Source: Bacteroides faecis MAJ27 (GTDB lineage Bacteria > Bacteroidota > Bacteroidia > Bacteroidales > Bacteroidaceae). Taken from it: DNA of 64,000 nucleotides. Within the stretch, counting starts at the first letter, position 1. Each line of letters starts with the position of its first letter. Location: positions 1 to 64,000 of the forward strand of contig NZ_FNNN01000009.1 in assembly GCF_900106755.1 (NCBI RefSeq), read 5' to 3'. The notes beneath the pieces are model-generated. The model worked only from the letters and a program-made list of their open reading frames with translations, had not been told where the DNA came from and made no database searches. The translations under genes were made by a program, and so were the position numbers. Positions 34,173 to 36,250 of the stretch are shown here, piece by piece.

Positions 34173-34220
34173 TATTTTTATTCTAGCTACAGTACGGCAT
34201 ACCCGATTCCCCTACATTTG
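34173..34220 (+). promoter_or_regulatory. susA promoter with candidate SusR site
   Basis: The 14-nt motif TATTTTTATTCTAG (34173-34186) is followed after 26 nt by the -7 element TACATTTG (34213-34220). The same motif and spacing occur upstream of susB. No -33 consensus is present, as expected for an activator-dependent promoter. That SusR binds this motif is inference. Confidence 0.75.
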
Positions 34221-34262
34221 CATCATCGGTTCTCCCGAACAAATTTTAAAAATCTAGTTACC

Positions 34263-36116
34263 ATGAAAAGGAATTTATTATTCACTATCTTACTATTATT
34301 ATTACCCGGTTTTCATCAGGTATTTGCGGCAAACGCTATAAAGAAAGTAGCTCCTGCCTTTTGGTGGGCAGGCATGAAAAATCCCGAATTACAAATACTA
34401 TTATATGGTGATCGCATATCATCCGCAGACGTCAGTCTTTCTTCCGGTGACATTACGCTGCAAGAAGTGGTGAAGCAGGAAAATCCGAATTATCTGGTTT
34501 TATATTTAGACCTTTCAAAGGCTGTCCCACAAAACTTTGACATCATCCTGACACAAGGCAAGAAGCAGACTAAAATCCCCTACGAGCTTAAACAGCGCAG
34601 ACCGGATGCTTCGGCAGTTGAAGGTTTCGATTCGAGTGATGTACTTTATCTCATCATGCCGGACCGTTTTGCCAATGGTGATTCTTCCAACGACGTCATT
34701 CCCGGAATGCTGGAAGGAAATGTCGATCGCAACGAGCCTTTCGCACGCCACGGAGGCGATTTAAAAGGAATAGAAAATCATCTGGACTACATAGCAGACC
34801 TTGGCGTCACCAGCATATGGCTCAACCCGATTCAGGAGAATGACATGAAAGAAGGTTCTTATCATGGGTATGCCATTACCGATTATTATCAGGTAGACCG
34901 CCGTTTCGGCAGCAACGAAGAGTTCCGTAACCTTACCCAGGCAGCCAATGCCAAGGGGTTGAAAGTGGTGATGGACATGATCTTCAACCATTGCGGTTCA
35001 GACAATTACCTGTTCAAGGATATGCCTTCCAAAGACTGGTTCAACTTCGAGGGCAACTACGTGCAGACCAGCTTTAAGACTGCCACTCAAATGGACCCGT
35101 ATACCTCCGATTACGAAAAGAAAATAGCCATCGACGGTTGGTTCACTCTGACCATGCCTGACTTCAACCAGCGCAACCGCCATGTTGCTACTTACTTGAT
35201 ACAAAGCAGTATCTGGTGGATAGAATACGCAGGTATCAACGGTATCCGTCAGGATACGCATCCTTATGCTGATTTTGATATGATGGCACGCTGGTGCAAA
35301 GCAATCAACGAAGAATATCCTAAATTCAACATTGTAGGTGAAACGTGGCTGGGCAGCAACGTACTTATCTCTTACTGGCAAAAAGACAGCAAACTCGCTT
35401 ATCCGAAGAACAGCAACCTCCCTACTGTGATGGATTTCCCGCTCATGGAAGAGATGAACAAGGCTTTCGACGAAGAGACTACCGAATGGAACGGAGGACT
35501 TTTCAGACTCTACGAATATCTGTCACAAGACATTGTTTTCAGTCACCCGATGAACCTGCTGACGTTCCTCGATAATCACGATACTTCCCGCTTCTACCGT
35601 TCGGAAGCAGACACAAAAAATCTCGACCGATACAAACAGGCCCTGACATTCTTACTGACAACCCGTGGAATACCGCAGATATATTACGGAACTGAAATCC
35701 TGATGGCAGCTGATAAAGCAAACGGAGACGGACTGCTCCGCTGTGACTTCCCCGGAGGCTGGCAGAATGACACAAAGAACTGCTTTGATGCAGCCAACCG
35801 CACTCCACGACAGAATGAAGCTTTCTCCTTTATGCAAAAGCTGCTCCAATGGAGAAAAGGAAATGAAGTGATCGCCAAAGGACAACTGAAACATTTCGCC
35901 CCGAATAAGGGTATCTATGTTTACGAACGTAAATACGGTAATCAGTCAGTCGTTGTCTTCCTGAATGGTACCGACCGGGAACAGACCATTGACCTGACTC
36001 CCTATCAGGAAGTACTTCCTGCTCCATCTGCTTTCGATTTATTGACAGATAAAAAAGTTGAATTAAGAAATGAATTAACACTCCCAAGTCGCGGAATATA
36101 CCTTTTATCCTTTTAA
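34263..36116 (+). CDS. susA: Periplasmic neopullulanase SusA (GH13)
   Basis: This 617-residue GH13 enzyme cuts maltooligosaccharides in the periplasm. A signal peptide (to FAANA) is followed by an N-terminal Ig-like domain (about 23-115) and the TIM barrel with catalytic Asp331 ([10 protein letters not shown]), Glu360 (NIVGETW) and Asp440 (LDNHD). I chose the ATG at 34263 because it gives the published length and a proper signal peptide; the Met at 34218 would overlap the -7 element. It has its own promoter, 197 nt before susB, and is transcribed separately from susB-G. Confidence 0.96.
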
Positions 36117-36202
36117 ACAAGTTCACTTCGACTTATATTTATCAGGAAACAAAAAGAAGATAAACATCTGTAAAACAAAATATTATCATTAATACCAACT
36201 TG

Positions 36203-36250
36203 TATTTTTATTCTAGATAGCCCAAAGTCCCGGGATGGTTGCTATATTTG
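36203..36250 (+). promoter_or_regulatory. susB-G promoter with candidate SusR site
   Basis: TATTTTTATTCTAG (36203-36216) is followed after 26 nt by TATATTTG (36243-36250), the same motif and spacing as at susA. Together these form a strong regulatory pair. The susB ATG is at 36314. Confidence 0.75.

Follow-up and report, generated by a model that had tools for sequence, protein, structure and literature searches.

The 14-bp repeat upstream of susA and susB in Bacteroides faecis is most likely the proximal half of a two-part SusR operator

The sus system is the prototype polysaccharide utilization locus and is controlled by SusR and maltose. As late as 2019 the mechanism of SusR was described as undefined (PMC6874557). 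Which element of the sus promoters could SusR act on? We analysed a window of 64,000 nucleotides from Bacteroides faecis MAJ27 that contains the locus (Table 1). The first-pass annotation of this DNA had pointed out a 14-bp motif, TATTTTTATTCTAG, which is identical upstream of susA and susB, and had proposed it as a candidate SusR operator. The two copies indeed lie at exactly 34173-34186 and 36203-36216, and in both cases exactly 26 nt separate the motif from TAnnTTTG, the -7 consensus of Bacteroides promoters (PMC7366714). With regard to the features of Bacteroides housekeeping (sigma-ABfr) promoters, both susA and susB have the -7 TAnnTTTG and lack the -33 TTTG: as the annotation had also claimed, there is no -33 consensus, and the 40 nt that precede each -7 element contain no TTTG. 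The missing -33 TTTG fits an activator-dependent promoter. The SusB and SusD proteins encoded in the window differ from the solved proteins 2d73 and 3ck7 at scattered positions of the alignments, so that the host is closely related to B. thetaiotaomicron and not clearly its type strain. Finally, between the end of susR and the end of the upstream gene (window positions ~32296-32395) the words TGGCAC/GTGCCA are repeated in both orientations.

Table 1. Features of the sus locus in the window, and two-box glucanotransferase promoters found in the genus.
Feature	Position	Strand	Basis or remark
susR, membrane-bound regulator, 532 aa	32420..34018	-	NCBIfam NF058541 SusR family, 570.4 bits (cut-off 480); Pfam DUF6377
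Likely -7 element of susR, TATATTTG	34042..34049	-	sole TAnnTTTG on the minus strand of the susR-susA gap
Distal SusR box of susA, CTTGTATTT (predicted)	34102..34110	+	67 bp upstream of proximal box
Proximal SusR box of susA, TTATATTTTTATTCTAG (predicted)	34170..34186	+	includes the 14-mer; conserved
-7 element of susA, TACATTTG	34213..34220	+	fits TAnnTTTG consensus (PMC7366714); conserved
susA, neopullulanase-type alpha-amylase	34263..36116	+	Pfam
Distal SusR box of susB, CTTATATTT (predicted)	36132..36140	+	67 bp upstream of proximal box
Proximal SusR box of susB, TTGTATTTTTATTCTAG (predicted)	36200..36216	+	includes the 14-mer; conserved
-7 element of susB, TATATTTG	36243..36250	+	TAnnTTTG match; conserved
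susB, GH97 alpha-glucosidase, first gene of susB-G	36314..38530	+	Pfam; close to solved SusB 2d73
susC	38682-41696	+	Pfam
susD	41718-43373	+	Pfam; close to solved SusD 3ck7
Glucanotransferase two-box promoters	L096, L102, L104, L107, L110-L114, match start 1501		66 bp; pattern search

If two mismatches are allowed, 1.26 matches to the 14-mer are expected per 64 kb, and at least two were found in 35 of 100 shuffles of the window; two such matches in the window are unremarkable. A search of both strands of the genome (5,957,899 bases), which the annotation had suggested, recovered only the two exact copies, and the 14-mer read backwards, used as a control, did not occur. As a chance model, 20,000 pairs of first-order Markov sequences were built on the susA and susB promoter regions. 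A 14-mer common to both members of a pair and equally far from the -7 element never arose; a common 14-mer at any position arose 11 times and a common 10-mer at equal distance nine times. What is unusual is the exactness combined with the equal spacing, not the recurrence of the motif alone. A chance origin of the shared 14-mer was rejected on the basis of the 0 of 20,000 pairs at the same offset. Coincidence in AT-rich DNA, to which the number of near-matches expected per 64 kb could point, is extremely improbable as an explanation in view of these simulations and also of the conservation of boxes and spacings across species.

Both promoters of the window also have a second box, YTTRTATTT, whose start precedes that of the first by 67 bp, in the same register. 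Searching the genome for the distal box, the proximal box and the -7 element together, with up to three mismatches, yielded matches at the susA and susB promoters only, each of them mismatch-free, and none in the control. The two boxes are unequal, in that the proximal one ends in a conserved ATTCTA, which the distal one lacks. A two-part arrangement had been predicted by Ravcheev et al. in 2013, who described direct repeats for SusR and three SusR-like regulators, with 67 or 77 bp between the centres of the boxes, and suggested that dimers sit on a single face of the helix (PMC3878776). The letters of the published SusR box sit in a figure and in the supplement of that paper; its abstract and sections 7, 11, 17 and 24 give neither the letters nor a distance to the -7 element (PMC3878776). 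Judged by the agreement in spacing and operon position, the 14-mer is most likely the proximal half of the two-part SusR operator that is already in print as the 2013 prediction.

To follow the element in relatives, 119 genomes of the genus were searched for SusR, and 91 of them contain a match at 1e-40 or better. Of the 57 regions taken from these matches 30 are of the SusR type, and 22 of the 30 provided a susA promoter, which together with the window gives 23 scored promoters; among the remaining eight regions, three have no full susA between susR and susB and the rest have no susA in the stretch. Proximal box, distal box and a perfect -7 element are present in all 23 susA promoters. The gap between ATTCTA and the -7 element, scored from 24 to 28 nt, is 27 nt in 22 of them and 28 nt in one, and the distal box, with 0 or 1 mismatch, lies at 67 bp in 17 and at 66 bp in six. 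In the nine loci whose SusR is 52-58% identical, the proximal box is three to six mismatches away from the consensus. For susB the architecture is found in 15 of the 23 rows (67 bp in 12, 66 bp in one and 77 bp in two, of which L058 is weak), and no promoter of this type was seen within 303 nt in seven rows; the susB promoter of L044 lies beyond the 303-nt limit. In L042, L043 and L045 the susB promoter directly follows susR, with no full-length susA in between. The boxes, their spacings and their conservation are direct observations. The information content of the 28 of 46 promoters with at most three mismatches amounts to 1.41 bits per base for the distal box, 0.58 for the spacer, 1.69 for the proximal box, 0.34 for the stretch between box and -7 element and 1.75 for the -7 element; these rows had been chosen by proximal box and -7 element, and the distal box played no part in the choice. 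Moreover, a scan of 80 named loci that allowed distances of 40-100 bp, a set that overlaps with the regions from the 119 genomes, revealed 53 pairs in 36 loci, 36 of them at 67 bp, 10 at 66 bp, four at 77 bp and one each at 45, 68 and 84 bp. The 36 loci include Parabacteroides, Phocaeicola, Barnesiella, one Prevotellaceae and one Paludibacter record. In a Bacteroides reticulotermitis record (L092 and L230) susR lies in two frames, being either broken or misassembled, and the susA boxes are retained. The susR-susA gap also has matches in NZ_OY725909.1 (80693-80851, 75%) and OY726001.1 (99713-99870, 70%), which are filed as plasmids of Bacteroides finegoldii and Phocaeicola massiliensis.

The exact 14-mer itself is carried by four promoters, namely susA and susB of the window and the susB promoters of L042 and L043. 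Both promoters match with at most three mismatches in 10 genomes, the window included; an identical 14-mer in the two promoters is confined to the window, and this private identity rules out the exact 14-mer as the conserved unit. The search of other Bacteroides that the annotation had called for thus does not bear out the identity of the 14-mer across promoters, whereas TTRTATTT-NN-ATTCTA and its spacing to the -7 element are conserved. It is this part that is conserved, and the identity of the 14-mer is partly luck. As for the candidate SusR operator, it stands as the best-supported reading, with boxes and spacings kept in orthologues and the full pattern absent elsewhere in the genome; the annotation had missed the distal half-site 67 bp upstream and had mistaken the private identity of the 14-mer for the conserved feature.

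We then asked where in the genus the complete arrangement occurs, using exact matching of the tripartite pattern TTRTATTT-N58/59-TTRTATTT-N35-TANNTTTG in the 119 genomes. This produced 29 matches in 23 genomes, and the pattern read backwards gave none in all 119; many SusR loci have no match, which is to be expected with an exact pattern. All 29 matches precede starch or maltodextrin genes. Twenty are sus promoters of susA or susB, two being the window's own and 18 being identified by tblastn. The other nine, all with the 66-bp spacing, lie before genes that by tblastn are 65-100% identical to one GH77 4-alpha-glucanotransferase, a reference gene in which Pfam detects GH77 and a CBM20 starch-binding domain. 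Since the pattern had been drawn from sus promoters alone, these nine matches constitute an independent test. In L104 a pullulanase-like gene is found on the other side of the two-box glucanotransferase promoter. In the window's own genome no sus box was seen by eye in the 330 nt before the glucanotransferase gene. The same search bears on the question of whether the boxes are a generic AT-rich upstream or -33-like promoter element that is read by the polymerase itself. The motif is AT-rich and adjoins the -33 position, and a genome search for one box plus the -7 element, with up to three mismatches, does not exceed chance apart from the two sus promoters (7 matches versus 6 in the control). 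However, exact matches to the pair precede starch genes only, and because the exact three-part pattern is confined to such genes we rejected the generic element, which we regard as very improbable.

A related arrangement is found at the SusR2 (dextran) loci (L069-L088, n=20), 19 of which have a promoter before a SusC-like gene. Eighteen of the 19 promoters share with the SusR promoters the two boxes and the register to the -7 element: in all 18 the distance from the start of the proximal box to this element is 45 nt, as it is in the susA and susB promoters of the window when counted from the leading A of ACTTRTATTT. They differ in the letters of the boxes, which read ACTAYWTTTT, and in the distance between them, which is 77 bp in 16 of the 18, 78 bp in one and 79 bp in one; for L075 and L088, where the script printed 57 and 61, an extra intervening match was set aside. 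In L079-L081, L083, L084 and L086-L088 a further CTTATATT precedes the distal SusR2 box by 11 bp and is a possible third half-site. The comparison between SusR and SusR2 promoters informs two further explanations. According to one of them, SusR sites would be limited to the distal box and the 5' portion of the proximal one, and sigma or polymerase would read the proximal-only ATTCTA as a special replacement for the -33 element. Its conservation in the proximal and not the distal box would agree with this, but ATTCTA directly adjoins the rest of the box and, as judged by eye, this extension is not the same in SusR and SusR2 promoters, which would be expected of a regulator contact; we consider the explanation unlikely. 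According to the other, the boxes would be bound by a different regulator on which SusR acts indirectly. Direct SusR-DNA data were not found in our literature search, which leaves room for such a route; yet SusR and SusR2 promoters have different box letters in one and the same register, and the other known candidate, a Crp-like regulator, has a different, palindromic site (PMC3878776), making indirect action quite improbable.

To see how far the arrangement extends, 62 further SusR-like loci with 175 candidate promoters were subjected to a blind scan over offsets and distances. The peak combines a distance of 67 bp with a box that precedes the -7 element by 47 nt (13 loci versus a mean of 1.36 per populated cell), and a second group is at 77 bp. 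At score 13 the best distance is 67 bp in 15 of 78 promoters and 77 bp in seven, followed by 91 bp with five. As a point against this, the same scan did not recover the 67-bp pair in the SusR group, its top cell being 88 bp with seven loci; the score favours G and C, and the boxes consist nearly entirely of A and T. Regulators were also grouped at 60% identity, which, with the main SusR and SusR2 clusters excluded, left 69 loci in 21 clusters, one of them made up of the 52-58% SusR orthologues. At score 13, 67 bp occurs in five clusters and 77 bp in six (other distances: mean 1.15, maximum 3). The signal fades at other thresholds: at score 12 the numbers are eight and seven clusters (mean 2.42, maximum 7), and at score 14 two and three (mean 0.47, maximum 3). 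A box pair at every SusR-like locus is unsupported, and L090, from the window's own genome, gave no convincing pair; L089 has one pair at 67 bp that was spotted first by eye and had been overlooked by the first scan. These results are suggestive of a spread of the two-box grammar to distant SusR-like regulators. Tentatively, and with more doubt than confidence, we propose that the SusR-like (DUF6377) regulators may follow one grammar, in which boxes 67 or 77 bp apart lie in one helical phase, the proximal box is ~43-46 nt before TAnnTTTG and the letters drift; a membrane-held SusR oligomer could span six to seven turns like a ruler and replace the -33 contact. If this is true, the targets of uncharacterised SusR-like regulators would be readable from sequence, and regulons could grow by acquiring the grammar, as at the glucanotransferase promoters.

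Taken together, we put the probability at roughly 80% that both 14-mers belong to SusR operators with two boxes, of which they form the half nearer to the promoter core, and that active SusR at the proximal box replaces the -33 contact and recruits the polymerase. The periplasmic TPR-like domain of SusR would sense malto-oligosaccharide, whereupon its cytoplasmic C-terminal helix-turn-helix (HTH) domains would occupy the two direct-repeat boxes 67 bp apart. The proximal box, whose leading A precedes the T of TAnnTTTG by 45 nt, would extend from ~-56 to -38 relative to the inferred start site, and SusR bound there would sit where sigma-ABfr would otherwise touch the -33 TTTG, so that the polymerase would be recruited only while SusR is active. 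Such activator-dependent recruitment is the simplest mechanism, because the box adjoins the -33 position and the -33 element is missing. The second box would hold the SusR oligomer in one helical phase, a role suggested by the difference of about one turn between the 67-bp and 77-bp spacings. We infer SusR as the binder and its contact with sigma; the box pair may be filled by one oligomer or by two dimers. The proposed switch agrees with the physiology of susR deletion strains, which fail to grow on either starch or maltoheptaose; the amounts of susR transcript were comparable between conditions (PMC11633381). In a literature search with most subscription journals and the 1996 SusR paper outside its coverage, no footprinting, gel-shift or other experiment on SusR sites was recognised, and no paper with mapped sus start sites was found. 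With the boxes and -7 elements located exactly and the rule of their spacing measured, short mutations in the promoters can put the 2013 prediction to the test. The spacing rule also suggests at which promoters SusR-like regulators without an assigned target may act.

How does this arrangement compare with known systems? The SusR motif of Ravcheev et al. has in common with the window the 67-bp direct repeat upstream of the SusR-controlled susA and susBCDEFG (PMC3878776). Relative to the main text of that paper, whose supplement may show some of them, our analysis adds three points, namely the conserved distance between proximal box and -7 element, the restriction of ATTCTA to the proximal box and the promoters of the glucanotransferase genes; it also gives an initial, incomplete picture of how the grammar looks at further SusR-like loci. 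On the protein side, AlphaFold2 predicts for SusR an N-terminal part of helical repeats, a long helix and a C-terminal HTH (mean pLDDT 85.2, pTM 0.58). The fold search with the full-length model was filled by TPR-type proteins, and therefore the C-terminus was modelled alone (pLDDT 92.9, pTM 0.82). Its best VIA match is VpsT 3klo (Z 6.5, rmsd 2.7 over 66 residues); the 50 VIA rows are mostly LuxR/NarL-type domains, none with a Z of 8 or more, and the best Foldseek E value is 0.097. Pfam finds no LuxR-type match in the C-terminal domain, and in SusR as a whole it detects DUF6377 alone (E 0.001) and no ATPase domain. In the models the C-terminus appears closest to LuxR/NarL-type domains, with modest scores. 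A PDB sequence search with the SusR alignment returned optineurin only (best E 0.054), which was taken as noise. The full-length model also matches domain III of MalT, 1hz4 (Z 17.8, rmsd 4.2 over 258 residues), as one of many TPR-type matches. MalT of Escherichia coli has direct-repeat sites, and its family is characterized by a cytoplasmic ATPase domain. Like SusR, MalT is a maltodextrin-responsive activator with a TPR-like sensor, and the C-terminal HTH in the model of SusR may share its LuxR-like shape. Unlike MalT, SusR is membrane-bound, has a periplasmic sensor and has no ATPase domain that Pfam could find. By analogy, SusR may at most work like MalT, of whose family it is not a member.
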